Shown: positions 1-64,000 of the stretch, one piece after another
Layout of the letters: every line of letters begins with the position of its first letter
Position numbering within the stretch: the first letter of the stretch is position 1
Assembly: GCA_905250025.1 (NCBI GenBank)
Contig: CAJNOJ010000141.1
Coordinates: forward strand, 199,589-263,588
Length of the DNA stretch: 64,000 bases
Reading direction: 5' to 3'
Source: Adineta ricciae
Taxonomy: Eukaryota; Rotifera; Eurotatoria; Adinetida; Adinetidae
Translations under genes and position numbers: made by a program
The notes under the pieces: generated by a model
What the model was told of the DNA's origin: nothing
Database searches by the model: none
What the model saw: only the letters and a program-made list of their open reading frames with translations

Positions 1-2419
1 TCCACGAAATTATTCCTTACATTTTTAATTACATTAATGCTAATTCTTCTTCTATATACATCACTAGTTGACAATACACAAACAATTTCTATTCCAGCAC
101 CTTCACTCGTTCAATATTCCCGAGCTTATTCCAAATATCAAGAAACATTAACATGCCCATGCACGAAAATCACCATCGGCTACTCGAAATTTCTTCAAAT
201 TGATTACAAACTTTATCAAGTATGTTCAAGTGTACTAGTCACCCAAGATTGGTTCAACTACCTAACAGCATATCATCTTACCGGTCAATTATATCTGTAC
301 GATTATCGATCAGTTATAAATAAAATCTTTCAAGGTTGGAGCACATTGTGTAATTTAACAACAGAAAGAATTTCGGATGACTTGGGTCAGTTTTATTCCA
401 CGCAATTCATCAGCTCATCATTGATATCCAATCAGACATTTCAAATCCAAGTGCAATCATTAATCCAGCAATTTCTTTGGCAAATAATTCAAGATTTTCT
501 TTTCTCAATTTCGTTAACTCGACAAACAAACTTTTTGCCGGTGTCCAAACCAACGCAAACTTCTCAACAACACCAGAACTTCGTTTAATTACGACACCGA
601 CGACATACAACAATTGTTCGTGCGACCTTTCACCAAAATGTACTCATCCAGCTCGAATCGACGATTTTCAAGGTAATGCAACATTATGGACCATTCCAGG
701 ATTCTACATTGGATGTTTTTTGATTGAATCTTTACTTCAATCCAATTTACAATGCTTCTTCAACCAATCCTGTATTGATCAGTTACAAGTTTACTTAGAT
801 ATATCATCAACAATGAATATCACTCAACTCAATCGATCTTTACTGAAAAACTTTCAAATGAATTCGATCGTCGAAGAATTAGTGAACAATCTGATGGTCG
901 AACAATGGAATTCATCGATTTCATTCGATAATTATTATTCGGAATGTCAACCTGCGCAATGCATCTACACAGACAAGATGAGAAACAGTGCGACTTACAT
1001 AGTCACAACGATCATTGGTCTGATCGGTGGATTAGTTATGGCATTGAAGTTGATCGTGCCACGAGTGGTCATGTTCTTCGGAAAGACTAGAAACAATGTT
1101 GAACGTAAGAAAAATTGAATGTCTAAACTAATGCGTAATTATACTTTCATAGGAATGGAAATGACCGAACGTATTCGAGTTAATCTAAAGAAATTCCGTG
1201 ATTATTTCAAAAATTTCAGTACCTTTCGTTCATTGAGTGAGGATGAAACGATGAAATTATTTCCACTCGTCTATTTCTCTTTCTCTTAATCTTATCTCTT
1301 GCCGTTCTTCTTCTCTACACATTGTTAATCGACACTACGCAAATCATTACAATTGAAAACCCAACATTAACTCAATATCTGCAACTCTATTCAGACCACT
1401 CGGATGCATTAAAATGTCCATGCACGAAAATCTCTGTCAACTACAAACAAATTCTATCGATTGAATATCAATTTCACGAAATATGTTCAAGTACATTCCT
1501 GAATCACGATTGGATCGTTCATATATCTCAGTGTGATGTCCAATACCGAATGTACTGTAATGACTTTCGTTGCAGTGGCCCGTACTATTTCCAAACCATG
1601 CTGAGTTACTGTCAAATGGTTAAGAAGACCATTTCCGATAGTTTAACACAATTTTATTCCAATCAGTATATAAGTTCATCGGTCATTGCATATAATGTCT
1701 TTGAAAGTCAAGTGAGCGAATTCATTGCACAGTTCATCTCCTCGACAACAAATAGCTTTCTCCTCTCGATATTAACCATACGAGGAACTACGTATTCGAA
1801 TGGTCTACTCGTCGGTCTCTTATACAATTTCTTGTTGGAAGTCGATACAATCACCAATCAAATCACATTACCATCGGAAACGTACGACGATTGTTACTGT
1901 GATCATACATCAACGTGCACGGCATCGTCGGACTTCTATCTTTCATTAACAGGAGTTCCATTATTGATCATTCCGGGATTTAAGAAAAGTTGCTTTATGA
2001 TCGATTCAGTATTAGGGTCGACTTTAGAATGTTTTTACAATCGAACATGTATTGATCAGATCAAAACATTTTATTCGGTGTCATCGGCAATGGATATGAT
2101 TCCATTGAATGCGAGTTCTCTTACTAGTTTCACAGTGAATTCAACGATGAAAGAAGTGACCGATGAATTAATGGTGAACCAATGGAAGAAAGAGATTTTG
2201 TATGCGAATTATTTCAATCAATGCGCTCCTTCGCAGTGTACTTATATTTATACGATCAAAAACACAGTTCTTTATATTATCACAACAATCATCGGCCTTA
2301 CTGGTGGTTTAATCACAGCTCTGCGATTTATCGTGCCGAAAGTTGTGAAATTCGTTCGAGGTCGTATTCAAAAGAGAAAAAACAGAGTTAGCACGATAAG
2401 AAACACCATTCGAACATAA
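1..2419 (+). pseudogene. Two-module CPC/CSS transmembrane protein, 5' partial, two frameshifts
   Basis: The gene enters the window already open and codes for two tandem copies of a module: a membrane span, a CPCTKI motif, a CSS..W motif, a mid-module CxC, a second Cys cluster and a C-terminal span (IIGL.GGL..AL). Module 1 covers about 1-1104. A 48-bp intron (1105-1152) joins it in frame to module 2, which ends at the TAA near 2419. The frame breaks twice, near 475 (after a TTT run) and near 1250 (after an AAA run); each is explained by loss of one base in a homopolymer. It may be a recent pseudogene or an intact gene with assembly errors. The family is not recognised by name; the topology (span, Cys-rich ectodomain, span) suggests a cell-surface protein. 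Intact relatives lie at 53015-56704. Confidence 0.7.
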
Positions 2420-2517
2420 AACCTTTCAGAACAAGACTGTTTCTGCTTTTCTCATTTAATCTAATAAAAATTCATTCTTCATCAGGAACTCCCGTCAACA
2501 TCGTATAGAATTTTTTA

Positions 2518-4127
2518 TTAAACAACATCGACATAAAACTCATTCGAACCTGAACCGGCATGTTTTTGCCAAAATGAGATCGTATACGTATGACCGATTA
2601 TTGCCGTAAAGGATTGACCAAGAAAATAAATGCCCAAACCAGTACTTTCGCAAGAAACTTGAACACAACTACCAGTGGATGAGACACAAAAAATACTAGG
2701 CGCTTTCTCTGCTGGATCGCCATTCGAATTAATAGTTGTCGTACAGGTATTCGCGCACCATTGGTTCCAACCAGCTAAGAATGAAATCGCATCTTCAAAA
2801 CTAGGATTGGTGAGCAATTCAACAGATGGCGCTGCAGTGTCAACAACCGATACGCTATCCAAATAGTGATTGTTACTGCTTGAAGTTTCCAGGCCAAACA
2901 AAAGGATAGGATCGGTGTAGTTTGTTGCTGTGTAACTTAAAGTCGATTTAGTCCATGTAGATGGAGTCGGTCCAAATTGTTGCATTAGTTTTCCGTAACC
3001 AAAGCCAGAACTTGCACAGTCTGGTGCTAGAAAGAATTTCATTACTAGAGAGATTATTGGAGAAAGTAAAGATCTTTACGTACTTGTTACTGGTCTCGTT
3101 ACCACTGTTGTTGTCTGTGCTATAATATAATGTAATGAGAAAAGCGTGCCAGTTGCTCAATGAAACGTACTTGAAGTTGTTCGAGATGTTGTCGATGTTG
3201 TCTCTGCAGAAAAAAAGCTTCTCTCGTTGATTGTATATCTTTATTCACTTGTGTGACAACTTACGTGATGTTGATGTGGTACGAGATGTGGTGGTCGAAC
3301 TTGTTGTACTAGTTGTTGTTACCGAAGTCGAGCTAGTGCTTGATGTTGAACTTGTAGTTTGAGTCGAGCTAGTTGACGTAGTGGCTACAGAAAATGAATA
3401 CTTTATTTGTATGACAGAAGTAACTCGTTACTGACTTGCTGATGTTGTTGATGAAGACGATGTTGTTGTTCGGGTCGTGGTGGTTGTCGTCGTTGTTGTT
3501 GTTGTTGTTGTATTTTCTATCATAAAAAGATAGTTGTATTGTTTTACACAGGTATAGAACAGAATACAAACGCATTTTAAGAACAATTATAAGTGCGGCA
3601 AGTCCAGCTAATGCGAGAGCTAGAATAAGGCACAAGCACAGCAATGGGCAAGGATGGCCCCAACAGCATTTTTTTCTAAATAATAAAGACGTACAATCAT
3701 AGGAAAAGCATTAAATCGCAAACTTCTTTTGTTTTCTTTTGGATTTTTTATTCGCATTTGTCCATTCTGTATCAAAGTTATCATCCGAAGTATTGTCTAA
3801 TTCGTTGCTTATTTGACTCACTGTCAAAATCCGAGGATTGATTTGTTTAGTACATTTTAAAGATTGATTATTTATAACACTCCAACATTTTGTGTCAAAT
3901 CGTTTAGGTTCAGATTGGACACGATGGGTTTTTGGTGCAGATTCAGATTTAGTTTCACTATCGCATCGCATCGAGAGTTCGTACGATAGAGGAGATGGAG
4001 GATTACTTTGATGTTTGATAAACACGTGACGTAATCCTCTTGAATGTTGAACAGGAACGCTTGTCACCCGTTTAAACGAGTTGAGTTCACTTCTGCTCAC
4101 ATGACGAACGGAGTATCGATCCATCAT
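2518..4127 (-). CDS. Type II membrane protein with Thr/Ser-rich stalk and C-terminal beta-sandwich-like domain (H1)
   Basis: Seven exons join in frame to 434 residues: 3724-4127, 3572-3675, 3436-3516, 3265-3384, 3171-3203, 3084-3119 and 2518-3044. The last acceptor could instead be at 3026, also in frame. The N-terminal ~135 residues are basic, Ser-rich and presumably cytosolic. Exon 2 encodes a membrane span after a CCW motif. Exons 3-6 encode an almost pure Thr/Ser mucin-like stalk. The last exon encodes about 170 residues with paired cysteines (WCANTC, SCES) and ends in a strand-rich segment, resembling galactose-binding-like domains common in rotifer surface proteins. The domain assignment is by general resemblance only. 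Introns are 34-61 bp; two donors read GTTTG. The H2 allele is at 15302-16907. A cell-surface or glycocalyx role is inferred. Confidence 0.75.
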
Positions 4128-4401
4128 TGATTATGTTCGACTGAATTCAGCATATATGCGAGTATTATTTATTAATCGCGAAAGAATAACCGAGAAAAAA
4201 GGTTTCTTCATTGTGAAAGTTGTGTCAGTACAAAATCTGCTCTATTTCTTTTATTTATTTTATACGAAATTAAAAAAACCAGTGTGTCCTTTCATTATTT
4301 TGAAGTTATAAAGAAACCGTGGAAATGTTTAGTGTATTACCAATAAATTAGAAAAAAATCATTTTTTAAGGAAGGGCGTATTAGCCACATGTTCATAGTT
4401 T

Positions 4402-5418
4402 TCATGTATGTGCTGTAGTGGCCACTCGTCGTTGTGTTCGCATTGAAAACAGACGTTGGAGACTTGTTTTCTTACGTAATTCTGATATTGACGCAAGATT
4501 TACAAAGGGAAAGATGAGAATAAGTAAATAACCCAAGAAATCAAATGTGAGTTGCACGTCACCACCACTTTGTTCTAATACACCGCATAGATGAACAAAA
4601 ATAAGAAAATTAAGGGGAATGTTAACAATAAGATACAGAACAGAAATCGGAACTAATTGAATAATTAATTTACGCTGTTTTCGCCACTGGATCGGCTGAT
4701 TAAGACGACGTTTCTGTCGATAAACTCGAAGAACTAATGCCACAACGAACAAACTAATTAATACCGTTGGAAATATATTATTAACACACGAATCCCATTT
4801 ACCAAGAATAGGATCATGTAAATAACACGGAAAGTTATTGCATACAGGTAGAGTATAGTTATAACGGTTCTGACAAGGTGGAAAGAAGATAACCATAACA
4901 TAGAAGATATAGATGTAACATAAGAGAATGATTAATGGAAGGTAGTGCAGGAGAAAACGTCTTTTCCTTGTTGAGACCCATTGGTCGCGAAAGACGAGAA
5001 TATGACGTTCGAAAGCACTCCATGCCATGATGATGGTGATTCCATTGTAAAAACCGATGTCAACTATCCACCAACAACGACATAAAATCGAATTTGATGG
5101 TTTGACACGACCTGAATTGGCGATAAAATCCAGATTTAATGGAATATCAATCAATTGAATCGTTGATCCAAAAAGAAGCAAAATAATTGTACTGTGATTA
5201 TTTAATTGCCATCTAAGATTTCGATCGATAAGAAGATGATAAAGTATGAAAAAAGTACAAATAATCGATGGAATGTCTAATAATAGGAGAAGCCAAAAAC
5301 GAATGGGACGAGGTATTGCAACTTCATCAGTGTCAAACGAGGCAGTGGCTGCGGCGAAATCATCAGTGCCTACCATTTTTTCCAATTGAATCATACGTAA
5401 ATGACGAGAGAATTTCAA
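4402..5418 (-). CDS. Seven-transmembrane receptor, rhodopsin-like orphan (H1)
   Basis: Single-exon ORF of 338 residues with seven hydrophobic segments at roughly 40-64, 75-96, 112-135, 155-178, 208-232, 248-275 and 292-312. A Cys begins TM3 (ILCRCWW) and Cys residues lie in the second extracellular loop, as in class A receptors. AFERH follows TM3 where the DRY motif normally sits. The C-tail is short and basic. This matches the large orphan peptide-receptor-like families of bdelloids; the ligand cannot be told from sequence. It lies 274 bp downstream of the type II membrane gene on the same strand. The H2 allele at 17172-18197 is nearly identical but runs three codons longer because the stop is shifted. 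Confidence 0.85.
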   Translation of the reverse strand: MKFSRHLRMIQLEKMVGTDDFAAATASFDTDEVAIPRPIRFWLLLLLDIPSIICTFFILYHLLIDRNLRWQLNNHSTIILLLFGSTIQLIDIPLNLDFIANSGRVKPSNSILCRCWWIVDIGFYNGITIIMAWSAFERHILVFRDQWVSTRKRRFLLHYLPLIILLCYIYIFYVMVIFFPPCQNRYNYTLPVCNNFPCYLHDPILGKWDSCVNNIFPTVLISLFVVALVLRVYRQKRRLNQPIQWRKQRKLIIQLVPISVLYLIVNIPLNFLIFVHLCGVLEQSGGDVQLTFDFLGYLLILIFPFVNLASISELRKKTSLQRLFSMRTQRRVATTAHT

Positions 5419-6470
5419 ATGAAAATTCTGGCAAACTAGAATACGATGTGAAAATCAACTAAATATAGCGTGAAAACAGGAAGTCAAAAGTCTGTTCATT
5501 AGTGTTAATCACATTTTAGTAGATTCTCTTTAAAAGGACATGAAGAACTGGAATATTATGAAGGAGATATTTTGCGTTCTTCTGTTTTCTTCTATCCAAA
5601 CATTACTCTCATTGTCAGTAGTATATTTTTGGATCGACCATTATATTAATCTCAGCAAGCTTTTTCTCTTACAAATACAATGCTTCACACTACATAGTAA
5701 TGGCTGCTAAAAAGATCTCAAGGTGTTTGATAGTATTAAAGAAGCATACCTAGAAGACAACTAATGTTAATGAGAGTTGTCATCAGCGATGAAAACTTCG
5801 CAGTTCATATATCAAAATTCACTTTCAGCCAGATGTCATATTCGTGAACATAATCCAACAAAGTCGTCAGCAGGCATATTGAAAACAGTCAAGTTTGAAA
5901 ATTCGAATTTTCCTCGTGCATACTCAAACACTATCACAACGATGAACAAAATCACACGGAAAGTATAAATTATTCGATTGCACCAGCAGTTGTTGCGCGT
6001 CATTTCACAAATGAATACAATTATATGCGGTACAAGGAATCAACATGCCAAAGACACATTGGAGAATAGACTTAAAAGTATAGTTATAACTTGTAGAGCA
6101 TCGAATTGATGATGACACATGTATGTTTCTTCTTCCAGTTGACAGGAGACAAAGAACATTCCATAGGAAATATTGGTTACTCACGATTTGATAAATATAT
6201 TGTCAACCAATGTCTATAATGTGCTAATTATGGAAAATCATGTGAGCTGAGCATCAAACATAACATTGGTATCGGTTTCATCAGCTCATCATTCTAAATC
6301 TTTAGGCCAGGATATATACAATGCCTCGCGAGTTTCTTTAATACATGTCATCGAAGAGAAACTCGAAATGGAAAATGTGGAATTAGATTCTTGGACATCC
6401 AGCAGAAATTTCCATTGTTATGCAAATAAATCGAACAAGGCATTAACTTGAATAATCGAACAAAAGAGAT
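5419..6470 (-). other. No intact gene; 7TM-like minus-strand remnants
   Basis: No complete gene is visible. On the minus strand, 5836-6003 codes a short hydrophobic ORF of 55 residues (a span followed by EYARGK), and just upstream a degraded stretch around 6010-6150 reads like an extracellular loop plus a span. These are consistent with an eroded 7TM gene. The same pieces occur in H2 at about 18300-18980 with additional stops, so the erosion is shared or ongoing. Function is not assignable. Confidence 0.35.
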
Positions 6471-6854
6471 CTAAAATTCGAACGAACTTTGTGGTATGTT
6501 CAATTTCATTTGATCCAATGTCGTATTTATTTCATGATCAAATTGTTTGTCAGATATTAAGTTGTACGCTAACTTAATTGAAGCAAGAAATGTCTGAATA
6601 TCATGAGAAATGGTTTCCTGTACTAATTGACAAAGCTTTCCAATTTCGTCGACGAACACAGAGTTCCATGATCCAAAATCAGCTTCATTTCTATAGAATC
6701 TGTCTGGATCGTCTAGTTTACCCATAGTGAAAATTAGCTGGAGCACATCTGTAGAGCATATTTGATAGAACGCTCTGACATCGCACAAATATAAATGTTC
6801 ATAGTCTGTAATCAACGGTTTTACATAGATCTTAGTAATATGTCGACCATTCAT
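6471..6854 (-). pseudogene. CPC/CSS-family fragment, N-terminal part (H1)
   Basis: The translated fragment retains the order of the family's N-terminal half: a Y..Y segment, QICSTDVLQLIF in the CSS..W position, a DF...F region and KLCQLVQETI matching the FC.LSK.TI segment of intact members. The second half of the module and the membrane spans are missing. A homologous, further damaged copy lies in H2 at about 19220-19606. Confidence 0.55.
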
Positions 6855-7184
6855 AGATAAGAAAAAACATCATTCGTCATCGAAAAAGAAATAACGAATG
6901 AAATGACATAGATGTAAGTTGGTGATTTGTTTCTTCATTTATTTAGGAATTTGTTTTATACGAATGGTACGAGCAAGCCGTTCTAAAACGAAACAATACA
7001 TCTAGTATAATCAAAGAACAATGAATTATATTTCTCCTTGTTGAAAATTACGTGCATTTTTGTGTTTTTTTGATTGTCAATGGAATAGAAAATAAGTTTC
7101 TTCACCGATGTCATATTCAGTTGAAGACCCACTATCAATAAGTTTGTCAGTTCATTAAATATTCTTCATGTATGTCGAATTTTA

Positions 7185-7653
7185 CCACCAGTCGATGGGT
7201 ATACAGTCAATATTGACATCATTGATACCTACTTGGCCGCTCTCTTCGATTTTAACTTGAATATTCTTATTTACACCCGTTAAAATGCCGCTAACAGTGT
7301 TGTCAGTATCATGACGTAGTTTTGCAACAAATGACTCAACTATATATTGAACTTGTTGTTGGAGAAGTACTTGAGATGGTAGATATTCGTTGATTATTCA
7401 GTGGAATTGAAGACTCGTTGCGCATCGGGGATGTTGCTTGCGACTATAACGAGCAAAACATGGTCAGGAATTGAAAATAAGTTGCACCGTAGGTATGAAC
7501 ATCGAGTGAAAACGCGGTTTTTATCCAACTAGACACGTCGTTTAGATCGAATAATGCTAGGTAATCCAACCATGCTGAAGATACCAACCTGCTCGAATAG
7601 ATCTGATGTAGGACGAATGTATCATTGAGAAATGTACCATACTGAACAAACAT
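7185..7653 (-). pseudogene. CPC/CSS-family fragment, N-terminal and central part (H1)
   Basis: Reading leftwards from 7653 the minus strand codes YGTFLNDTFVLHQIYSSRL and AWLDYL, matching the F.....HQVCSS.LVS..WI pattern of intact members, then FQFLTMFC. After a frame break a second open stretch (about 7375-7185) continues with a QQQVQYIVESF segment ending WW*. The C-terminal module half is absent. The corresponding H2 region (about 20048-20377) has lost part of the middle. Confidence 0.55.
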
Positions 7654-7867
7654 TCATGGACAAGGAATCATGTAGCTTTTCGTATGTTTATCGAGAGGGT
7701 TGGATAAGAATATATAAACGTCAGCAGTGGTTGAACACATGATTAGTATGAGGATCATAGGCATCGTGTTAAAGTCAATCCGGGCTGATTTGCTGGGGAA
7801 GACTCAGAGTGATTATCTGAGCTTACTTAAATGTCGACGAAGGCTTTTTGTTCTCTTTATCAACGTT

Positions 7868-8990
7868 TTATCCTCTTTGGTGCGCTTGGAAAAAAAGAAG
7901 ATTAACAACGAAAGATACAAGTCTTTTCAGGACGAATACATTGAGACAGAACATGCCGATCATATTCGTAATAGTATAGATCAGTGAGAAATATTTCGTA
8001 TAAGTGTAAACGCAACGAGTTGGTCGGCATTGCTGATGAAGGGCTGTGAATGCAACCGTTATGTTCAAATGATCAATCATAATGTTGTCGATCAGCATTT
8101 GTACAGTTGATAATAATTCGATTCCGGCGCTCGAGCGTTGATGCATTTGTGAAAATCAGGTTGAGCTATGATACTATTCCAATGTTGAATGTAATACAAC
8201 ATCGATCATGTCACAATTCGTGATCATGCCAGAAATTGATCATAATCAAATGCGGACAATCGTGCAGACTTAAACACGAACAATTCTCGTACGTTGTTGG
8301 TATCATCTGAGGACTGTGACTAGATTGACAATCATTCAATAGGTAGCCCAAATAGGAATTTGTTGTTAAACCGGATACGAATTGACTTTCGATGGTTGTT
8401 CTTTGAAAGGCGAATAAATCACGTTTGAGAACAGTCTTAAACAAAGAAATCGCATTGTCAAGTGCTATTTAAGCTTAGGTTTCGATGACAAGGTCGCTAA
8501 GTACGATTGGACTGAAAATATGCGACAATCTAAAGTTGATCACAACATGAATCCATGTCTGATTACTTATATGACAGAAATCAGCTATGATTTGCCAACA
8601 ATAAACAAAGCAATATCGAATATTGTATTGCACCAGAAACGCTTCGTTTCTGTCCTGCTATATTATCGAATCGATCCAAGCTTGTTAAACAAAACTACGG
8701 AAGCAAACTTGGTGGAATTCTACATCAGCATGCGCAAATGTTGCGTAAGCAATACCAATTTTCGATCATGGACATTAGATTGTTGTCGACTATTTTAGTA
8801 TTCAATCGTTAAATTCCGGATTTGTTCGAAAATTGATTGAGTATGCAAAGCTGCAATCAAATTGATGAGAATATACAGCATGGCGTAGAGACGTATCGCA
8901 TATCGTTATTGACGGATGGTTCCATCGTCGGTGGCATCCGCCCCGAAAAGATTCCATTTGCATAAGGATTTCTTTCATATGTTGTTTCTC
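7868..8990 (-). pseudogene. CPC/CSS-family pseudogene, near full-length module (H1)
   Basis: All parts of one module can be traced on the minus strand, but in several frames with stops. A first membrane span (RYAIRLYAMLYILINLI) lies near 8960-8830, FHQVC.RSFV.QAWI near 8720-8670, the YENCSCLSLHDC cluster near 8300, and the C-terminal DHLNITVAFTAL, CRPTRCVYTY and second span at 8146-7868. With the two shorter fragments downstream this forms a decayed tandem array. H2 carries the same array at about 19220-21650. Confidence 0.6.
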
Positions 8991-9262
8991 ATTTTAAAAA
9001 TATGACTTGTGAGAGAAGCGATGGAAAACTGCTGCTGATCACGAATGACAGATGATTGATAAAGCAAAAATAAGGAGCAGATTAATTACTTCCAACAGAA
9101 CTTTTTTCTCTACGCAATAGTTCAATCTACCAGCTGGCGTAGTTTATTTTCTACGCAGTTGATCGAGGAGCATATTTCATTCTAATGTGAGTACAAACGT
9201 CAATACTGTTTACAGTTTGAAAACAAATGGTTTGTATTTTTTATTTAATAAAGTTGATTTGA

Positions 9263-9865
9263 TCAAACGGATAAAAGCATTTCTACATCGGACTCATCAT
9301 CTTTGTTCGATGATCTATCAATGACAAGTAGATATTGTTCATGCCAATTATTTGTCGGAGGTTCTTTACGCAGCGTAATACTGAGCACGCCGAAGAAAAG
9401 CAGAATGAGAAAGATTGTTGCAATGAAGAATACAATCAATGCAGCATTGTTGCTTGGCTTTGACCAAAGTAGTTTTTCTTTTGATTTTGAAGTAAGGCCA
9501 TAACATGGGTAAACTCGATTCGCCTGAAAAAAAAACGTTATCTACAGTAAAATATCGTTTGTATACAAATTGAACAGTACCGCATATTGTTCTTTTGCTT
9601 TTTGACTTGCAAGATATTCCGAATGTTCGGTTAAAATATCCATAATCGTTGCATTCCTGTTAACATTATCTACCACTGTTACATGCCATGTACATTTGTA
9701 ACCTCTCGTCTGAGGTTGAATCGAGATCGCATCAACTCGACATTTCAATCCAACATAACCTTTCGATTTATCGTATTCATTCCAAGCACATAGATACAGA
9801 CCGATTGTAAATAAGCAAAGAGTCAAAAAACCGATCACATCACATAACTTGGCTTTGTGAGCCAT
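9263..9865 (-). CDS. Two-span membrane protein of unknown family (H1)
   Basis: Two exons, 9581-9865 and 9263-9523, separated by a 57-bp GT-AG intron, give 181 residues. Residues ~8-28 form the first span (IGFLTLCLFTIGLYLCAW) and ~127-150 the second (LIVFFIATIFLILLFFGVL). Between them is a ~95-residue loop with conserved Cys (KCRV..., YKCTW, YPCYG) and an N-glycosylation-type NAT. The C-tail is acidic. The topology resembles auxiliary channel subunits with two spans and a Cys-stabilised loop, but no family-specific motif is seen, so no function is assigned. The H2 allele (21922-22524) has the same exon sizes, which supports the model. The gene is divergent from the dehydrogenase gene at 10328 across about 460 bp. 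Confidence 0.75.
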
Positions 9866-10327
9866 TATGTTTTGTTTAATGTGAAAAAAAACAACCGATT
9901 GATTGTGTGTGTCTCACTATCCACCTGATAAATATACGTATGATGGTAGAGAATGCGTTTATTTTATGTTTGTTTTTCTCGTATCTATAAAAATCAAATA
10001 CAATTATTAGTAGATGAAAGAAGTATGAAATAGCTCGAAGATGGAGCGACCTATTTATGAATTTAAAAGTTGTCTTTCTGCGAAAAGATGATTCCATTCC
10101 TCGAAAACGACAAGAACAGTTTAAACATCAACGTTTTGCTTTTCGTGATGATTACTTTCACATAAAAACAAGGGTATTCGTTTGATCAAGCAAATGTCCA
10201 CGCTCGCATGATTGATCTGCATTATATATATTTTTTTGCGTTCTCTTTCGTCTCTCAAGTAATCGTACAGGTTTGTTTTTCTTTCTCTGATTGTGTTGTA
10301 ATTTATTTCGAAATCGACACAGGAGAA
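9866..10327. promoter_or_regulatory. Divergent intergenic region, putative shared promoter
   Basis: About 460 bp separate the starts of the minus-strand two-span gene and the plus-strand dehydrogenase gene. It is AT-rich with no coding signal on either strand. It probably contains both promoters; no specific element can be named. The H2 counterpart is 22525-22987. Confidence 0.35.
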
Positions 10328-12274: not shown

Positions 12275-12303
12275 ACTCTGACATCGATATTTTTTATACT
12301 GAT

Positions 12304-14820: not shown

Positions 14821-14860
14821 CTGAAAAATGTGATGATATAAACATGTTTTTCTTATCGAC

Positions 14861-52645: not shown

Positions 52646-52888
52646 TCATGAAAATAGTTGTTTTCGAAAAGAAATATACATACATTTCCGTTCGGTTTCT
52701 AGATTTACAACAAAATGGTGTCGTTTAACTGGCAATTGATTCTCATTACAGTGAATTTATTGACAAAATTTGTCTCATCCATCGATCGTTTGGACGAACT
52801 TATGCTTTTGAACTTGTTCCTACCCTAGAATCTTATTTTAAATTGAACAATTAAATTCATAGCAGAAGCTATTCAATAAAAGTGTTTC
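52486..52888 (+). pseudogene. Chimeric fragment: ART/TPR 5' end joined to pyrophosphatase ends
   Basis: Positions 52486-52645 copy the first ~54 codons of the ART-fold/TPR gene (MGCESSKGN start). At 52646 the sequence switches to a copy of 47637-47806 (pyrophosphatase upstream region and first codons), then near 52816 jumps to a copy of about 48793-48924 (its last codons and 3' UTR). The first frame runs on into the pyrophosphatase leader and stops at 52728, giving an 80-codon chimeric ORF. The body of both genes is missing, so this is a rearrangement product and not a functional enzyme. Confidence 0.75.
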
Positions 52889-53014
52889 TATCTAACGTAT
52901 GAAGCATATTGCATTTCCGGTGTGCATGACTACACTCGTCTCTTCTTTCTTCCATTAAACATAAGTTATGTTTACTGATTGTTCGTCATTTACTCTCGTA
53001 ACAAGCTCAGTTTC

Positions 53015-56000
53015 ATGTCTTCTTTGAAACGTTACTTTTTGACGTTGAATTTCTTTGCTCCGAAGCCCGATGATAATGAGGAGGAAACGGATGAACAACG
53101 TCGATGGAATATCATTGCAACACGAATCTATATGTTACTTCTTTTATTAATTCTATTTGGAGTCGGCCTAGACTTTTCTTTAATAGACCGCACAATCACA
53201 GTCACAGTAGAAAAGCCAAGCAAAGAACAACTAGACGCTCTTCCTAAAGATGCGAAATGTTTGTGTTCACAAATATCGATACCATATGGAAAATTCACCT
53301 CGCTTCAAGCCAATTTCCATTCGCTCTGCACAAGTCAGTTCATTACAGATCGTTGGATCAAAGCAATCAATTCAGGATCGCATACGACTTCATTCTTTCT
53401 CGGTGACTTTCGAACTTTCGGTAGTGCTCAATTTCAAGCGCTGTCTGCATTTTGTCGATTATCGACGTCCAATATCAATCAGAGCATTGACTATTTCTAT
53501 TCGAACACATTACTCAGTTTGGAAGTTTTCAACGAAGAAATTCTTCATGCACAAACTCAAGCATCGATATCTCAATTTCAGCTAAAAGTAGCCGATACAT
53601 TTCAAACCCAATTACGATTAATCAATTTCTTGACAATCAACAATGGACTAATAAGCAGTCTTCGAACGAATGCATTCTATTTACTTCGGCGCGATAGCCA
53701 GAATTTGTTCAGCGTATCTTTGTATAATCTATGGTATTCACAAGACGATGGTTCAACATGTGGTTGTCGAGTGAACATTTGTAACCGAAGTTTGTCAGGT
53801 ATATTCAGTGCATTTCGAGCAACATCTCCGATCGAAGCTGGTAGTCTTTTGTTATCTATTCCCGGCATATCAAGTGGTTGTCTCCCGGTTACTTCAATCC
53901 TCGTTTCAAGTCTCGAATGTTTCTATAATCAAACGTGCATCGACCAACTTCTCTTATACTTCCCAACCAATGAAAGGTTTCAAGCGATACCAGTGTATCC
54001 TCAGAGTATTTACAATCCAGAATCTACCATACAAACAATAGTCAACAATTTAATGATAGAAAATTGGACAATTGAAATTTCGTATGAGAAATATTATTCC
54101 GAATGTGCACCGTCATCGTGTACTTACTTGCAAATCGCTCGATACTCAGTTGGATTCATCATCAAGAGATTGATTAGTTTATTGGCGGGTTTGGTCTTAA
54201 TATTGGGATTATTGATTTCACTTGTTCTGAAAGTTATTCATCGATTAAAAGATCGAACACCCATACCGAAAATTTCTCGTATGTAATTTCATTTCTTCGA
54301 TTGAATATTATCAAATTCTGTTTCTCTAGTATCACTTCGTTTGCGAAATTTGCAAAACCTTGTTCTCAAACAACTGATGCATTTGAATTTATTTCAGCAT
54401 TATCCAAGTTCTGAACGACAAATTCGCTATCAATGTTATGCTACTCGAGTTTATTTAATTTACATGATAATATCTGTTATAGTTCTAGCCTTTTATTCAT
54501 TGATGATCAAAACAAACCAATCCAAAACGATTATTAATCCAACAGAAACCCAATACATTGAACTCGAAAGACTACATTTGCAATCTCTCTCATGTCCTTG
54601 TAGTTCAATATCTATACCATACTCACGTTTTCTTACCATTCAACCAGAATATCATCAAGTCTGTTCAAGTGATCTAGTATCCGATGAATGGATTAAATAT
54701 TTCGCTGTTTCGACAAGTAATCGATCTGTACTCAGTGATGATTTCAAATCAAATGCAGATAGTCAGTTTCAACTTTTATCGATGTTTTGCAAACAATCTA
54801 AAGAGATAATTGCCAATGCTTTGGAATTATTTCTGCAAACAAAGTTTTTCAGTTTACAAATTATTCCTCCAGAGTCATTTCAAGTTGAGACAAATTCGTT
54901 CTTTCAAAACTGGAAAAGGACAACTACGAAAACGTATCTCACAACAATTCAACTATTCGAGACAGCTATCCAGAATAATCAACTAAGTAATAACCTCAAT
55001 TTTGGCATGAGAGTCGATCCGATCTTTGGACAACCGTCCATGGGGTCAATAATATACTCAGATTGTAGCTGTGGACGCTCAGTAACATGCCATTCACTTG
55101 CGAATCTTTATACTTATGATGCAAATTTAACTGAGTATGTTAAAGTGTATTCAATTCCGAATTTTTTTAATGGATGTTTCCATATTACATCGTTACTATT
55201 ATCCACATTGGAGTGTTTTTACAATATCTCATGCATGCTACAAATCCATCGATATGCAAATCCAACAGTATCTTTTAACTTTTCTGCTCTTGATCCGCGT
55301 CTTAGTTTAGTCAATGAAACAGTTGCTGTTCTCGTCGAGAAATCAATGGTTGATCAGTGGTTAGTGAATGTTTCCTTCACTTCGTACTATGACATATGTG
55401 CACCATCATCCTGCACATATCAATATGAAGATCGAGACAATCTTCTCATCGTGATTACCACCATTGTAGGTATTTTTGGTGGATTATCGCTCGGATTGAA
55501 ATTATTGATTATCATTGGACTACAATTTATTGACAAAATCATAGCCATTCGTGTTGATGGCCGTGTTTCATCTCGATTTATTAAAAGTATATTCGGTTGT
55601 ACTACAGAACATCAAGTTATTCATCGATTGCATTTCATGTTAGTGGCTGTGACCCTGAGTGTTATTTACTACTTTGCTGGCGTCACGTCTCGCATCATAA
55701 CCGTTCGGATTGATAAACCTAGTTTATATGCATACGAAGAATTACTTAAGAAATCGTCGGATTCGTTACATTGTGCCTGTTCGCAAATATCAATTCCGCA
55801 TCAAGAATTTCTCAAGGTCACATCACGTTTTCATGAAATTTGCTCGAGTGAATTTATATCCGATGAGTGGATTTCGTATTTGTATGGTGATATCAATCCT
55901 ATTTATCGGTATGAGTATACAGATTTTTTTTATACGGCTTCTAAACAATTTCAAATTCTGGTTACTTTTTGTCAACTATCGAAAAAAACAGTTGAAAATG

Positions 56001-56704
56001 CTCTTTTACAATTTGACTCGACGGATCTAATTCAAGCTGATCTCCTATCATTCAATTCACTAGACGCATACATTCAACAGACGATGATAGATCTTCGACG
56101 AACGATGCCGAAATTATACGCCAATACACTTGCCTTAATTCGAGAAACAATTGGTGCGAACAAGTTATTGAGTAGTTTATTCAATAACTGGGAATTATCG
56201 TTTGCGGCTAGCGACATGTATGGCACTACAGCGTTTTTCTCAAGCCCGAAGGAATATAATCACTGTAGCTGTGCAACATCATCGAAATGCATTTCACCAT
56301 CGCATGGAATGTTCGCTGGATGTTACACACTTGAAACAATCTTACAAACGCCGATTCAATGTTTATACAACCAAACATGTATTGACCCGTCAAATACTTT
56401 CCGAGCAATCAATTCATCTTCATTATTATCGAGCCAGTTTTCATTGAATTCAACATTTCAATCCATTGTGAATGAATTAATGCTGGAACAACTAATGATG
56501 GATGTTTCGTATGAAAAATACTTCAATGCATGCGCACCTCTATCGTGCACTCAGTCGTATTTGGTCGAATACAGTATTATCGAAGGTATAGCAATGTTAA
56601 TCGATCTCTACGGTGGAATGTTTATCATTTGCCGATTACTGTCTATATTCATCGTTAAACAGGTTCTATGTTTCAAATCAAAAGTTCGTGCAATAAATGA
56701 TTAA
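53015..56704 (+). CDS. Three-module CPC/CSS transmembrane protein
   Basis: Exon 1 (53015-54278) and exon 2 (54330-56704), joined by a 51-bp intron with a GTATGT donor, give 1212 residues and three tandem modules starting near residues 1, 430 and 850. Each module has a membrane span, C.CSQISIPY or CPCSSISIPY, a CSS/CTS..F...WI motif, FC.LS/QS, a central CxC cluster (CGCR, CSCGRSVTC, CSCATSSKC), LECFYN.TCI, LM...W...I.YE.Y...CAPSSCTY and a second span. Each module therefore resembles a complete span-ectodomain-span protein, and the gene a fused trimer. The topology recalls acid-sensing or ENaC-type channel subunits, but no family-specific motif was recognised, so function is open. The start was chosen at MSSLKRYF. 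Confidence 0.82.
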
Positions 56705-56918
56705 TATTTTAAAAAACTGTTTATTGATTGATGACGTATGAAACAATTGACGTCGGACAATGTACATGAAATTTGAAAAGAAATGTGTGACTTGTTTAAT
56801 AACATTTTCTTTCTGTCGATTTTGATCTCAACGGCGTTTGTTTTTCTTCTGTCATTTGTCATTGTTACATTAAAAATATTGAATTCAAAGCTACAATCAT
56901 TCATAGTTTGATCTAGAT

Positions 56919-58679
56919 ATGGGTTGTGAAAGTTCCAAAGGAAATATCCAATCGACGTCGATGCCGATTGTTGTTAATTCTAAACAGAACGTTACGGAAC
57001 AGTCCGATTACGATTTCGCTGTGGTAGTTAAACAAAATTTTGATCAAGTGGCACTTTCTTATCCATATACAAAAGTGTTCAAGGACATCGTTGTCAATAT
57101 GAAGTTTTACGATTACGTTGTGAAAGATTTTACAAATTATTCTCGTGAAATGAACAGCAGAAGTGAATCGAATCACATCGATGAATTCGAACATAATTAT
57201 CGGGCAAAAAGTCCAATCTGGTGGTACACACGGCAATGTTTTGTAAATAAAATGTTGACACAAGCGATTCGATCGTTAGAAATTAACACATTATTCAGAA
57301 TGAGTTTCTTTATTCACGATTTGCATCACCAAATCGAACAGTTATACAAACAGCAAGCTCACGAAAAGCCTTTCATTGTCTATCATGCACAATACGTCGT
57401 CCATGAAACGTTTCAAAATCTATTGAAAAGTATAGGTCAGGTCATGTGTTTCAATGATTTTTTATTAGCGAATGAAATTTTCGAAGATTCAATCAAAACT
57501 TTGACAAAACCAAATACAGCTGGTGTCCTCTTTCAAATATCAGTGAATCCAGCAATAAAAACGGTTCCATTCGCCTCGATTCAAGAGACTAGTTATTCTC
57601 AAAAACAAGGACAAGTACTCTTTGCAATGCATTCCATGTTTCGAATCGATGGCATGGAAATGCTTAGCGACAATCCACTGCATTATCAAATTGAACTGAA
57701 ATTAATCAGTAACGACGATCCACAAATTCGCCAACTCGATAAATCTATCGAAGAGAACGTTTCTCACGTTGTCGAATGGCAACGCTTAGGCGAAATCTTG
57801 TTTAAATTGAGTCAGTTCGACAAGGCGGAAGAACTCTATCGACTATTACTCGAACAAGCGTTCAGTAACAATCAACTAGCTTTGTATTACAACCAACTTG
57901 GCTATGTCAAAGATAACCAAGAAGATTACGAAAATGCTTTAATCTATTATGTGAAATCACTGGAAATGTGGCAGAAAATCACTCCAACGAACAAGCAAGA
58001 GTTGGCGATTACTTACGGGAATATAGGTCGATTGTATTGCAATTTAGAAGATTATCCAAAAGCGTTTCTATTCAATGAAAAATCACTGGAAATTAGAAAA
58101 GATATTCTCGCTTCAGATCATCCGGAATTGGCCAGTTCGTATAATAACATTGGAATGGTATATCAACGAACGGGGGACTATCGAAAAGCGTTGGAATATT
58201 TTGAAAAAGCACTTGAAATCTGGCAAAAATCACCACCATCGAACTATCCAATGTTAGCGACGTCGTACAGCAACATTGGCTCGACTTATGAAAATCTGGG
58301 TGACTTTACTAAAGCTTATTCGTTTTTTCAAAAAGGACTCGATATTAAGAAGAAAACGCTACCTGCGAATCATCCTGATTTAGCGATTTCATACGATAAT
58401 ATCGGCTTACTATATCAAAAGATGGGCGAATATTCAAAAGCACTATCATCATTAAACAGAGCGGTGGAAATTTATCAGAAATCTTTATCCGCAGACAGCT
58501 CACTATTGGCAACTACGTACAATAATATAGGTTTGACTTACCAAAAGCTGAACGATTTTTCCAAAGCACTTTCATTCCATCAGAAAGCATTGGAAATTCG
58601 CAAACAGATCTTACCCGCCGATCATCCTGCTCTGAAAGCTACGCAAGACAATATAGACAATTGTAAAAAACGATTATGA
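56919..58679 (+). CDS. Lipidation-motif ART-fold / TPR protein
   Basis: Single-exon ORF of 586 residues. It starts MGCESSK, a fitting signal for Gly2 myristoylation and Cys3 palmitoylation, so membrane attachment is likely. Residues ~40-250 align by pattern with the ADP-ribosyltransferase domain joined to TPRs in rotifers (WWYTRQCF, VYHAQ, CFNDFL, LFQISVNP, VPFASIQETSY, QVLFAMHSMFRI). The R-S-E catalytic signature is not kept: HA stands where an Arg is expected, LLAN at the Ser-Thr-Ser position, and Gln at the Glu-x-Glu position. About seven 42-residue TPRs follow (~285-580). The protein is probably a non-catalytic adaptor at a membrane. Its promoter and first codons are duplicated at 52225-52645. 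Confidence 0.78.
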   Translation: MGCESSKGNIQSTSMPIVVNSKQNVTEQSDYDFAVVVKQNFDQVALSYPYTKVFKDIVVNMKFYDYVVKDFTNYSREMNSRSESNHIDEFEHNYRAKSPIWWYTRQCFVNKMLTQAIRSLEINTLFRMSFFIHDLHHQIEQLYKQQAHEKPFIVYHAQYVVHETFQNLLKSIGQVMCFNDFLLANEIFEDSIKTLTKPNTAGVLFQISVNPAIKTVPFASIQETSYSQKQGQVLFAMHSMFRIDGMEMLSDNPLHYQIELKLISNDDPQIRQLDKSIEENVSHVVEWQRLGEILFKLSQFDKAEELYRLLLEQAFSNNQLALYYNQLGYVKDNQEDYENALIYYVKSLEMWQKITPTNKQELAITYGNIGRLYCNLEDYPKAFLFNEKSLEIRKDILASDHPELASSYNNIGMVYQRTGDYRKALEYFEKALEIWQKSPPSNYPMLATSYSNIGSTYENLGDFTKAYSFFQKGLDIKKKTLPANHPDLAISYDNIGLLYQKMGEYSKALSSLNRAVEIYQKSLSADSSLLATTYNNIGLTYQKLNDFSKALSFHQKALEIRKQILPADHPALKATQDNIDNCKKRL

Positions 58680-59023
58680 ATGCTTTGTCAGAATTTTCAA
58701 TGTTAAACAAAAAAGAAATGAGAAAAGAAAAATTATTTTTCAGTACGCTTCCGAGTGACGTCATTCGTCGTTTCAAAGTGATTCACGAGAGGAAATGTGT
58801 TCACTAACGAGGGAACATATTCAGGTGATTAAGCTATTCAAATCCCAACTTTTGGTGATAGATAGACCTCTATGAGGTATGAAAAACCTCAAGAGGATTC
58901 GTGCCCTCGCGCCTTTGTTCCACAGATATTGAGTTCTCAAGATGTATACGAAAAGAGACTGAAATGAAGGATGATCGTTTTTATAGAACAGTAGAGTTTT
59001 CAGGTGAAAACTTTTTCCGGTTT
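58680..59023. other. Intergenic to block end
   Basis: No gene seen. The sequence ends at the N at 59024. Confidence 0.5.
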
Positions 59024-59024: not shown

Positions 59025-59060
59025 GTCATCTTTTAGTTTTAATCAACGAAAGAAACAAAC

Positions 59061-59825
59061 CTTCCATCCGATTGTCGAGTACGATCCGATGAATTCGGCA
59101 TCGGTACAATACCCGATTGGGCTGCTTGATCAAATGATGAGAAAAGTTTCAAACCAAATGCAAATGGAAAACCCTGCGCTAAACATGATTTCATTTCGTA
59201 TAAGTCAATATTAATCTGTAATGCTTCGGTAATCTTGTGATGTTTGGCCTGTTGATAAGCTTCATCACTTGGCTGTTCGTTGACTTGTGTAACATCATAC
59301 GGCCAAAGAGATTCCAGACAAGTGCCGTACTCTTCTAATGCTTCAATAATACACGTCATTGAACATCCTGAATCAGTTATATCATTCTCGCTTCCATTTT
59401 CTTTTACACGACCATTGTAGTAGATAAACAAGCGACTAATATCGATATTCTGATGGCTTTCTCTCTTTGTTAAATATTCATACGCTCCTATTTTGTGACG
59501 GTGAAGAAAAAGAAAAGAACGAAGACTTTCTCTTACCAGCTAAACAGTTTGCTGAGCTAAGAAAAAAAAATAGATAAAAGACGAAACGTTCATTTATACT
59601 TGAATTTCGTTCTTACCAACTTCCAATTCTTGATTGATCTTCTACTGGTGTCATTTGTTCGCGAAGATCGGTTTTTGGTGGTAGATCTTCGGGATTATAA
59701 ACTAGATGATCTCGAAATGCTTGACACAATCTTTCCTTGAATGGTAAACGTTCCGATGGATGTATTCCATTCAGACGGAATCTTCGATTTTTTGATCGGT
59801 TAGTTAAAAATGTTTTCAACCCCAT
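59061..59825 (-). CDS. Papain-like cysteine protease, 5' exons (H2, intact)
   Basis: Exons 59617-59825, 59537-59556 (20 nt) and 59061-59487 have the same lengths as in H1 where comparable. From MGLKTFLTNRS the frame is open through RFRLNGIHPSERLPF, TDLREQMTPVEDQS and GSCSANCLAGAYEYL, with the catalytic Cys in the 20-nt exon, to the donor after GRTRQSDG. Together with 32679-32971 (about 49 nt of exon 4 missing) this gives about 313 residues. No propeptide or signal peptide is evident; the enzyme may be cytosolic or the start may be further upstream. Papain-like members of this compact type also occur in bacteria and archaea. Confidence 0.82.
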
Positions 59826-60356
59826 GCTGCGTCTCAATGTTGATTGAAGAAAAAAGTTTACCGATTCAGTTGTGTTCCATGAAAAACATGCCGAGCAAGT
59901 CTCGTGCGTGTATTCAATCTTTTTTTCCTTCTGTACTCTTGTCTAGCTCTTCGACGATCGGTTCTATGTGCCGATTAATTATTTTTTCTTTTCTTGCTTT
60001 TTTTGCCCCTTCAGACACTTGTAACCTTGTGATCGAACATGCAACATATCATGCAAAAGACTCGTATAGAACAATCGGACTGTGCTGAGTGAAAACAATG
60101 TTTCCATCTTGAGTTATTTGACTTCAGTTGCATGATTTTTCCTTTCGCACTCACATCACAAATCAACGATTGTTAGTTCAATTTGCATAGCTAATATCCG
60201 AGCACATAGCCTGATTCTCCTGTGAAAACAAAATACACATGAGTTTTCTTTATCTAAAAAGACGGATGTTTGACTATGGTATATATAGAGAGAGAATGTT
60301 AATGAAAGAGCAGATCACACAAGGATGTTTTTTTCCTACGTATACTAGCCTTTTTT

Positions 60357-61322
60357 GTGTTACATTACGTAATCAATGATCGCTATGTATTATATCATTC
60401 GAACGACCGAACTAGCGGATTCTCATACGGTTGTCTCTATGCTGTTCGGATTCTGGACAACAAACTATTTAGCCACGCGCCTCCTATGGATAATTATTTT
60501 CTAATTTCTTATGGCCGAAGGCTAGATTATGATAGAGAACAGCCAGCCATTCTTACTGATGAAAATGCCATTTCAAATATGAACGTTGCAGAGTTAAAAA
60601 AAACAAGATATTAAAGTTGAACATTGACTCAATTGGTCTTTTCCTTTATCGAACATTGCCAAAGTGAGACATGGGCACTGTGTCTTGATTGGCGAGAAAT
60701 TTCATTCGTGTTAAACTCGAAACATGAATTCAAGTATTCAACTATCAGTCTGAGTATTCAATTATTTGGGTATTCCTGCTGGCCGGGTATTCTGTAACAC
60801 CCTCATTTGACGAACACTCGAGTACGAATGCTTGAATACTTCAATTCAAGTTTCGAGTTATACATATATGCAATTCTCAACCAAAGGAAATCTTCTATCA
60901 CTCGATGCGATCATTGGCTATTTCATTAAACCCAGTGTGACCTTTTCCTTCCATCCATTCATCGTCAAGACCACCATCTTGTGCACTTCTTTGGACCTTT
61001 GATCATCAACACCATGCCGGCGATTTCGATTGTGATTTTGATCAGTCGTAGTCGATCACATATTCAACAAAATAGAACATCTCATTTAGTGTTTCTATTT
61101 ATTAACGGATGTATGAGAACGCCACGTTATCCATGGCTCTATGTTATCGGTTATTATATTTCATTCAAGCCAGCGATACTAATATTCTTTACATTTATTT
61201 TACCCTTGAAGAATTTTAGAAAAGCAACAACAACAACGACAATGCACCATTCGAAGACAATCGATTCGATTCCTATGAGAACACTTAGCTGCAGGAGTCA
61301 AAACTCCTATACTTTGTTCTAG
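60357..61322 (+). pseudogene. Eroded membrane-protein gene with 7TM-like C-terminus (H2)
   Basis: Counterpart of 44040-44800. The first piece (60357-60614) carries RTSGFSYG, LDNKLFSHAPP and DENAISNMNVAELKK; the second (60981-61322) carries the span, YVIGYYISFKPAILIFF and NFRKA. Between them is about 370 bp not found in H1. The lesions differ from H1. Confidence 0.4.
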
Positions 61323-61347
61323 ATGTATTGCTTTTACTTCTTGTTTG

Positions 61348-62478
61348 TTATCGACTACGATAGTTCAGTCGCTTCTTCCCTGATATCCAGCAGAAGCCGC
61401 CATTCTTTGATGTTCTATACTTGTTATATCGTGGTAAATTCGCTAAATATGTAATTACTTGTTGTGCAGGTTTCCAAATCGATTCGAAATAAACTAATCG
61501 TTTGTGCCATATGTAAACAAACTTCGAATAGGCAACATGAATTCTCGGATTAATAAAGGTTCGGTTCGGTTGATTGATATCTGCATGGATGAGACAACAC
61601 TCTGATGCATCGTAGTCGGATACGTTATCTAACGAACGAAATTTCAGTCCATTCTCGAACGGTTTACTGTCGAAGGCGGCCATACCAGACCAACAACTTT
61701 TGACATGAATGAGACTGTTTCGTAGAACTTGTGATTGACTTCGACCAGGAGAGAAATATGGATATAATGGTAAACCCATCGAATAGCCGAGAGAATCACG
61801 AGTAGCGAAAGTATCGTAGAATTTCACTGGATTGATGAAATCGAGCGCACAGGCGGCTGCATAGTTTCCACTGTTGGTCTGAAGAAGTTGAATTACATCT
61901 TGACTAGAAAAAACTACATCGTTGAGAAAGAGGACCTTGGAAAAACGTCCATTGCTCATGATGGGCTCCAAAGCACGGTTTCGAACCATAGCAAGATATG
62001 CCATGCGAGATAAGTATTTGCCTTTTCGATCATTGATGTATAAAGAGGCATATTGATCTTCATCAAGATTTATTGCCGTTGTTACGATTCTATGCTCGCA
62101 TTTCAATTGCTTTTCGAGTTGTCGTAAAAGATGCGGCGTCGCATCTGTTGAATTATTCTCGAAAATAGACAAATAAACGTTGTTAGGACCGAGTTGATCA
62201 ATGACTTCCATCAATGTACAAGTCCAGCGGCCATCTTGAAGTAATGATTGTGATTGATAGAGATTGATAGCGATGAAAACTCGACCAATCGAATGATTAT
62301 TTTCAAGAGCCGAGGATCGATAGTCAGTAATGACGTTATGATATGATTGTAAAAGTCGATGCGGTGAGATGTAAATATTGAATAGGAATAAAACAAAAAA
62401 TATAATGAGAAGTTTCGAACAAAGTAGGAGTCGGGCTGATTTCTTGCAGCTGGTTCCGGACGGCGTTCGTTCTTCCAT
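61348..62478 (-). CDS. GT69-type (CAP59/CMT1-like) alpha-mannosyltransferase (H2)
   Basis: Allele of 44824-45954: 376 residues, same topology and motifs (FLNDVVFSSQDV, YAAACALDF, FYDTFATRDS, ECCLIH). Substitutions are scattered and mostly conservative, with an open frame in both copies, consistent with a functional gene under purifying selection. Confidence 0.88.
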   Translation of the reverse strand: MEERTPSGTSCKKSARLLLCSKLLIIFFVLFLFNIYISPHRLLQSYHNVITDYRSSALENNHSIGRVFIAINLYQSQSLLQDGRWTCTLMEVIDQLGPNNVYLSIFENNSTDATPHLLRQLEKQLKCEHRIVTTAINLDEDQYASLYINDRKGKYLSRMAYLAMVRNRALEPIMSNGRFSKVLFLNDVVFSSQDVIQLLQTNSGNYAAACALDFINPVKFYDTFATRDSLGYSMGLPLYPYFSPGRSQSQVLRNSLIHVKSCWSGMAAFDSKPFENGLKFRSLDNVSDYDASECCLIHADINQPNRTFINPRIHVAYSKFVYIWHKRLVYFESIWKPAQQVITYLANLPRYNKYRTSKNGGFCWISGKKRLNYRSR

Positions 62479-64000
62479 ATACGACTAAGCCGCGTTACAA
62501 TAATAACATAGAAGTAAAAAGGAAACGCTGTCATGCGAGAGTCTTTTTCAAAATAAAATCATGTTTTTCCGCCTAGTTAGTGAATCTAATGAAGACACGT
62601 GCTCAGAAAATTTTTTTATCCTGTCAATGTAAGACATTCATTATTTTCTCGTTCTCGCTCTCATTCCTTGTACTTTCATTGGATATATATTACGAATAAT
62701 AAATATTTGCCCTCATTTCACACGTTATCTGAAAAAACGCATGAATAGTCAACGCCCATATGCTGTTCTGTCATAGTGGATATTACACGATGAAAATATG
62801 ACATTAAATTAGTCAATCGATAGAAAAAGATCGAGCAAATGTCAAAACGATGACTCATACAGAAGATGTACTCGCAGAGCAATCTTAATCTCCTGTATGT
62901 GCCGACGATTCTTGCGTTCTGTTAGCACACAAGGAGAAAAAAAGATTCACCCTCTTTTGCGTTTTTTTCAGTGTATATCAGCCGAATACATGTGTCATAT
63001 ATTATCATATGAAACTTTTGGATTTATACGGAACACTTGACATGGATTTTGTCTAATACACAGTAGAAACAGAGGTGTCTAGAATAACATTCTGACTGAT
63101 GAATGAGAGAGAAAGAGAGAAAAGCTTTGGACATGTTCAAAACGTTTGAAAACTAACATGAAGAAGGAATTATGTTAGTTCTTCCTAATTCAGATTTAGA
63201 TGAACTGGTTAATCAATTGATCAATATATTCTTTGTCTTCATCATTATGATCGAAAGAACGAAAGAGTTGGTATAAACTCAACTGAAAGCATCCAGTTCT
63301 AGTTTGATGAGAAATGATGAAATTTATGTAGTTGATTCAAAAGGAACAGCTGATCTTATTCTACTTGAGCGATTTCATAAAAATTGAAACATCTTTTCGT
63401 ATAATTTCAGGTGGTAAGAAAAAAACGTATTTATAAATCATCGTTAACTGTTGACTGTGGTTCACTACATCATACACCTATGAATCGAAAATCATACCGC
63501 TGGTTTCTCAAACTGGGAATTCATTCTTTGCACGACTTCCTTTCAACGTTTTCGTTGTATACCGTTCCCATAACCCCGAGGCTGAATTCTCGAGCCTTCT
63601 CTTTGCAGGTAAGACCGTGTAGTAAATTCATTGAAACTATATCTGCGTTCATAGCTTCATTCATAAGACTATGGGATCAACAGATGTATGTGGAAAATCT
63701 TTGACTCAAATTACATCACCACTCCAAATGCACAATTTATTTTTCGTTCTGTTTATCTTCGATTGAAGACATTCGTATTCAAGAGGTTAATACTCGTCGC
63801 CCAAGATGCTATTGATATTACATTATTCGTGAATTTAAATATCAAACGAAAGGAAGTGAGTCAAAGCAAAGTATTACTTTTGACGATATTTGATTTATAA
63901 AAATGAAACTTATTTCGCCGCCGACACATTCACGATTGAAACATACGATATACTCTGTATTGTTAAATCGAGCAATTAAAGTGTTGGTAGACGCGTGTAG
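62479..64000. other. Intergenic to window end
   Basis: Matches H1b 45955 to about 47500. No confident gene; the short open stretch at 63411-63704 parallels 46967-47191. The pyrophosphatase start expected just beyond is outside the window. Confidence 0.4.

Follow-up and report, generated by a model that had tools for sequence, protein, structure and literature searches.

The DNA considered here is the last 64,000 bases of scaffold C141 (contig CAJNOJ010000141.1; 263,588 bp) of the bdelloid rotifer Adineta ricciae, positions 199589-263588 of that scaffold, which we call the window and number from 1. It contains exactly three Ns, all of them single, at 14861, 32972 and 59024, and these divide it into four blocks that appear to come by turns from two haplotypes, here termed H1 and H2. 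As drawn, the order is H1-H2-H1-H2, which a literal reading would take for tandem duplication. The homology edges at the joins, the genes that the joins interrupt, and the pattern along the whole scaffold point instead to an artefact of scaffolding.

The first block, H1a (1-14860), is the right-hand 14.9 kb of block 23 of the scaffold, and comparison of the window with itself by BLASTN matched its bases 2106-14859 to 14862-27518 of the next block in several pieces at 79-93% identity. The second, H2a (14862-32971; block 24), begins at the equivalent of 2106 and stops at the equivalent of 42667. The third, H1b (32973-59023; block 25), begins at the equivalent of 27735, and the last, H2b (59025-64000; block 26), ends the scaffold. 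Further self-matches pair 27735-29045 with 32973-34285 (94.4%), 32739-32971 with 42437-42667 (97.4%), and 42733-47487 with 59025-64000 (two pieces, 91-93%). All of these copies are direct and lie close to each other.

Base-level alignment of the block edges placed 14860 at 27519 and 32973 at 27735, so that the gap in H1 comprises 27520-27734, a stretch of 215 bp in H2a that lacks an H1 counterpart and across which H2a runs unbroken. In the same way 32971 aligns to 42667 and 59025 to 42733, and the gap in H2 is therefore 42668-42732, 65 bp of H1b that lack an H2 counterpart and across which H1b is unbroken. The three Ns are best described as misjoins. At the first (H1a/H2a, 14861) homology edges lie 1-2 bp away on both sides, and at the second (H2a/H1b, 32972) the edges are seen both by BLASTN and at base level. 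At the third (H1b/H2b, 59024) the right side opens a homology block exactly, while the left side has no edge of a high-scoring segment pair (HSP) and ends in a dispersed repeat. That repeat occupies the last 221 bp of H1b (58803-59023), has at least 34 further matches in both orientations, and likely explains why the H1b contig stops where it does. The original prediction, made from the letters of the window alone, had held that the single Ns coincide with jumps in homology and that H1 resumes after about 215 bp and H2 after about 65 bp; the first point is borne out at all three joins, and the second agrees with the base-level alignment.

Each gap cuts a gene that is whole on the other allele. 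A sodium:solute symporter gene (SSF, PF00474) on the minus strand is unbroken on H2a (26568-28155), where it is covered by two open reading frames (ORFs), 26568-27551 and 27526-28155, with E values of 1.7e-50 and 9.8e-45. On H1 it is divided by the gap: H1a carries the C-terminal part (13908-14852, minus strand; profile positions 216-406, E 2.9e-50), cut at the first join, and H1b carries the N-terminal part (32974-33444, minus strand; profile positions 37-171, E 4.6e-37), cut at the second. To judge from the H2a translation, the portion between these two pieces adjoins an intron and lies within the 215 bp that H1 lacks. Compared with H2a, the ORF at 13908-14852 has a ratio of nonsynonymous to synonymous divergence (Ka/Ks) of 0.03.

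The gap in H2 interrupts a cysteine-protease-like gene, also on the minus strand, which is whole on H1b at approximately 42638-43247 and spans the gap there. Its main exon, ORF 42747-43247, resembles PDB entry 3ois_A (E 1.8e-13), and a Pfam search returned no family for it. Three-frame translation places HALLAVGYNDQSQSFIVRNSWGEDW, which we take to be a recognised motif, whole on H1b in a frame other than that of the main exon. H2a stops inside HALLAVGYNDQSQSFIVRNSWGEDW, ending in VRNSWGEDWV (approximately 32942-32971, minus strand, cut at the second join), and H2b begins on its far side, with a counterpart of the main exon at 59039-59539 (minus strand; 166 aligned codons, 9 amino-acid differences). 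As had been proposed, then, each cut gene is completed across a block that is not its neighbour, the symporter by H1a with H1b and the protease-like gene by H2a with H2b.

The window shares this structure with the rest of C141. The scaffold contains 25 joins made of short N runs (a run of 10 at one of them and single Ns at the other 24), which define 27 blocks when two long N runs are excluded. Homology edges were taken from HSPs of at least 150 bp and at least 85% identity, on either strand and anywhere in the scaffold, a definition under which some edges are repeat matches. All 25 short-N joins have such an edge no more than 5 bp away on one side or both (22 on the left, 24 on the right), as against 0.8% on the left and 0.75% on the right for 2000 random positions. 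Neighbouring blocks overlap by at least 190 bp at 21 of the 25, with identities of 88-99% and one exact overlap. In total, 187,162 of 246,118 called bases (76%) match, in direct orientation, a block no more than four away (at least 80% identity over at least 150 bp).

The order of the blocks is equally regular. A test for exact suffix-prefix overlaps of 15-1500 bp among the 702 ordered block pairs returned seven, of 133-300 bp and all forward, one of them between the adjacent blocks 3 and 4 (221 bp) and six between non-adjacent blocks: 6-10 (221 bp), 14-16 (249 bp), 16-18 (221 bp), 18-20 (300 bp), 19-21 (199 bp) and 20-23 (133 bp). Three of the seven are 221 bp long, a length that a fixed assembler k might account for, and the others measure 133, 199, 249 and 300 bp. 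The chain 14-16-18-20-23 reads as a single haplotype that runs by way of non-adjacent blocks to H1a, block 23 being tied to block 20 by the exact 133-bp end-to-start overlap, with blocks 21 and 22 passed over. When the blocks are placed on a shared axis, the later block begins later in 31 of 32 overlapping pairs. Contigs contained within others are placed after their containers (3 after 2; 7, 8 and 9 after 6; 15 after 14; 19 after 18; 26 after 25), which is the order that sorting by start position gives. Outside the window, a segment at C141:17581-32768 and C141:125822-128835 occurs up to three times in direct orientation and once inverted further along, at 91-97% identity, and is probably a dispersed repeat.

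Copy number was examined by searching ten DNA stretches against 130.46 Mb of the genome in 1033 contigs, apparently those longer than about 10 kb. Four of the ten (window 10000-14800, 27100-29000 and 41700-44400, and C141:90001-96000) have exactly two allele-level copies, both of them on C141. Two others have a third copy on contig C867, and for a further two the sole other close long copy is again on C867, past the end of H2b. The remaining two were a Kelch region, which has dispersed relatives at 90-92%, and the flank of the C867 copy.

More distant relatives serve as outgroups. At the symporter locus the ohnologs on C92 and C15 share 95.3% identity over 3.8 kb, each is about 76% identical to H1 and to H2 over 849 bp, and H1 and H2 share 94.4% identity with each other over 4.9 kb. 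For this one locus, the four sequences form a quartet of two plus two, as expected for the degenerate tetraploidy of bdelloids; the divergence between homolog pairs quoted for Adineta vaga is 24.9% (PMC5916493). The C92 copy passes within 200138-201466 from sequence like H1a to sequence like H1b, the C15 copy mirrors it, both cross the gap in H1, and neither 3.8-kb piece contains an N. A control stretch, C92:170001-220000, has one N (at 194670), a GC content of 35.7% and no overlap with itself; interleaving is therefore not found in every stretch of the assembly, the control being a single scaffold.

All of this leaves us close to certain that the interleaving of C141 is an artefact of haplotype scaffolding, and that neither tandem duplication nor an ameiotic architecture underlies it. 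A strongly heterozygous diploid genome would have been assembled as separate short contigs for each allele, and the contigs of both haplotypes would then have been mapped to one coordinate axis, supplied either by long reads or by a reference assembly, on which alleles about 6.5% apart could not be distinguished. Ordering the contigs by where they start and stringing them together, with a single N at each overlap or abutment, would give H1a-H2a-H1b-H2b, an arrangement that no chromosome would have; one of the two homologous chromosomes would in truth carry H1a-H1b and the other H2a-H2b. RaGOO is a published instance of such a procedure, as it sorts contigs by the start and then the end of their reference alignments and pads the joins with N (PMC6816165). 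The claim is for a class of procedure, start-sorted scaffolding, and not for a named program, because the assembly section of PMC7943196 does not state a scaffolder for the A. ricciae assembly ARIC003 (GCA_905250025.1). SSPACE-LongRead was considered and rejected, since its published rule removes contigs that overlap by at least 200 bp and it cannot yield overlaps of more than 10 kb. Pruning of the Redundans type, which drops contigs that lie mostly inside another, is not favoured as a cause of the stagger, given that contained contigs (7, 8 and 9 in 6; 3 in 2; 19 in 18) were still placed.

The literal reading of the scaffold is that direct units of 12-18 kb were duplicated and interspersed on one chromosome, and the copies are indeed direct and close together. 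True duplication would be expected to leave its junctions in called sequence free of Ns, whereas all three window junctions are single Ns, and the homology edges found at every short-N join of the scaffold tell against it. So do the exact end overlaps between non-neighbours, which skip the intervening block, and the unbroken passage of the C92 and C15 ohnologs across the gap in H1. Moreover, the four regions with two allele-level copies have both on C141, and the contigs searched include no separate allele of an array. We consider duplication of this kind highly improbable, in keeping with the suspicion that prompted the analysis, namely that the repeated segments are only apparent. An ameiotic architecture, in which alleles truly lie on the same chromosome, has a precedent in the same-scaffold alleles of the 2013 A. 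vaga assembly, from which it was once inferred (as related in PMC5916493). The evidence from join edges, exact overlaps, ohnologs and copy number bears on it just as it does on duplication, and collinearity between homologs was largely preserved in an earlier A. ricciae assembly, which had two linked blocks only and in which many of the detected breaks spanned scaffold gaps (PMC5916493). We hold it to be no more probable than duplication. Finally, the interleaved copies might be ohnologs dating from the ancient tetraploidy instead of alleles. Genomes of the bdelloid type do carry ohnologs, and C92 and C15 resemble such a pair, yet the identity of 94.4% between H1 and H2, set against about 76% to C92 and C15 and 95.3% between these two, makes this the least probable account of the three, and one that we give almost no credence.

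Several observations weigh against a scaffolding artefact or complicate it. Four of the 25 short-N joins (7-8, 8-9, 9-10 and 21-22) show no direct overlap between neighbours; block 6 contains the whole of blocks 7, 8 and 9. The join of 10 Ns, between blocks 22 and 23, is the one exception to the start-sorted order and has the look of two sub-scaffolds joined at a later stage. In the account of RaGOO the pad was set at 200 bp for tomato (PMC6816165), as opposed to 1 here, and the assembly section of PMC7943196 names that program for other samples. The long relatives of the gap in H2 belong to a large gene family at 64-71% identity and include no clean ohnolog; some of them, C73:202001-203026 (69%) for example, align through the gap in one piece. 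The third copy on C867, for its part, makes a description in terms of two haplotypes incomplete at the scaffold end. The block order H1-H2-H1-H2 that was first proposed nonetheless stands, on the strength of base-exact junctions, genes completed over a skipped block, unbroken ohnologs at the gap in H1, and the scaffold-wide pattern.

The C867 copy deserves a closer description. This contig is 18,547 bp long, and its region 15401-18547 is a third allele-level copy of the end of C141, 95.9% identical to 62784-64000 of H2b and 93.1% identical to 46263-48926 of H1b. Across 1214 alignment columns, H1 is the odd one out at 65 sites, H2b at 23 and C867 at 19, with all three different at 1 and the rest alike. 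A plain continuation of H2b into C867 is ruled out by 42 mismatches in an alignment of 1222 columns. The other flank of the C867 copy matches C139:98518-98923 at 93%, and there is a sharp breakpoint where C867 departs from both C139 and H2b. The C867 piece contains no N; that of C139 (97901-99300) has one, at 99024, which is 506 bp from the C867 breakpoint. The copy could have arisen by ectopic duplication or by translocation, could represent a third haplotype, or could result from misassembly at the contig level. It is possible, if rather doubtful, that the scaffold end truly exists in three allele-level copies, the one on C867 having been duplicated or translocated beside sequence allelic to C139 as a real hemizygous rearrangement, or else representing a third haplotype and extra ploidy. 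A. ricciae reads have been said to suggest a ploidy level other than that of A. vaga (Jaron et al. 2020, PMC7953838). Were a third haplotype general, the assignment of the window blocks to H1 and H2 would be likely and not forced, because it assumes two haplotypes and 46263-47487 has a third copy on C867.

The divergence between the two haplotypes is 6.5% over 19,103 aligned columns from nine chosen block pairs, the array of TPR repeats and two short pieces being excluded; the published allelic divergence for A. ricciae is 5.5% (PMC7953838). Seven ORFs paired between H1 and H2 have synonymous divergences (Ks) of 0.03-0.17; six of them have Ka/Ks values of 0.03-0.29, and the seventh, a piece of 166 codons with low Ks, has 0.79. 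Agreement of gene order and exon lengths between the copies had also been proposed, and this holds in part. It fails for about 4.5 kb (34654-39181) that is extra in H1b and for the length of an ORF with TPR repeats. The first of these differences carries a Kelch-repeat ORF (35808-36869), and H2a has 0.57 kb in its place; parts of it match C357, C252, C397 and C867 at 90-92%, so that a dispersed element or gene copy is the probable explanation. The TPR-repeat ORF, whose repeat unit measures about 126 bp, has 642 codons in H2a (29766-31694) and 771 in H1b (39097-41412).

Other features lie toward the scaffold end. An ORF of the CAP59-type mannosyltransferase family (PF11735, E about 7e-77) is present at 44824-45960 and again at 61348-62484; the family is named from the fungus Cryptococcus, and the ORF is a candidate for horizontal transfer. 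A stretch of about 3.9 kb in H1b (48927-52815) contains a dynamin-like ORF (49782-51065; PF00350) and is flanked by 73-bp copies at 48854-48926 and 52816-52888; it is absent from C867, and copies of 49220-52066 at about 85% identity occur at two sites on C118, 73 kb apart. A direct repeat of 432 bp hinted at a long terminal repeat (LTR) element spanning 52231-57094, which was unsupported, ORFs 52979-54286 and 54305-56704 having no Pfam match. Counting further against it, the stretch of C867 examined has the equivalent of 52816 directly after that of 48926 and no copy of 52231-52661. A search of the window and the C867 piece for telomere-like tandem repeats (four hexamers, representing two motifs on both strands) found none.

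The biology of the locus is most likely ordinary, and its main value is as a warning for readings of genome structure that draw on C141. Alleles linked on a single scaffold were once taken as evidence against conventional meiosis in bdelloids, and C141 shows that such linkage can come from scaffolding alone. Homologous chromosomes in A. vaga were reportedly described by Simion and colleagues in 2021. Scaffolds of this kind may be recognised by breaks that fall on single Ns, by exact overlaps linking blocks that are not neighbours, by an order sorted by start, and by ohnologs that remain unbroken; such scaffolds would inflate or break gene counts, lists of tandem duplicates and scans for collinearity. 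Among the titles and abstract openings of open-licence literature on A. ricciae assembly, interleaving and false tandem duplication, no account of the C141 interleaving was found.

The kind of error is already known for A. ricciae (PMC5916493), and what is added here is its extent, over a complete scaffold. As that paper describes the 2018 assembly (Nowell et al. 2018), apparent breaks in collinearity lay at scaffolding gaps and the two linked blocks were direct, as are the copies in C141; unlike there, the whole 263-kb scaffold is interleaved here, through 25 joins. The 2013 assembly of A. vaga, with the 23 palindromes and 2 tandem arrays that the same source reports, likewise linked alleles on one scaffold, though mostly in inverted orientation, whereas the C141 copies are direct and tied to short runs of N. 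A further parallel is offered by uncollapsed haplotypes (Guiglielmoni et al. 2021, PMC8178825), in which both alleles are kept and can be read as duplication. C141 differs from the long-read assemblies treated in that work in that its alleles are concatenated within a single scaffold, through joins of one N.

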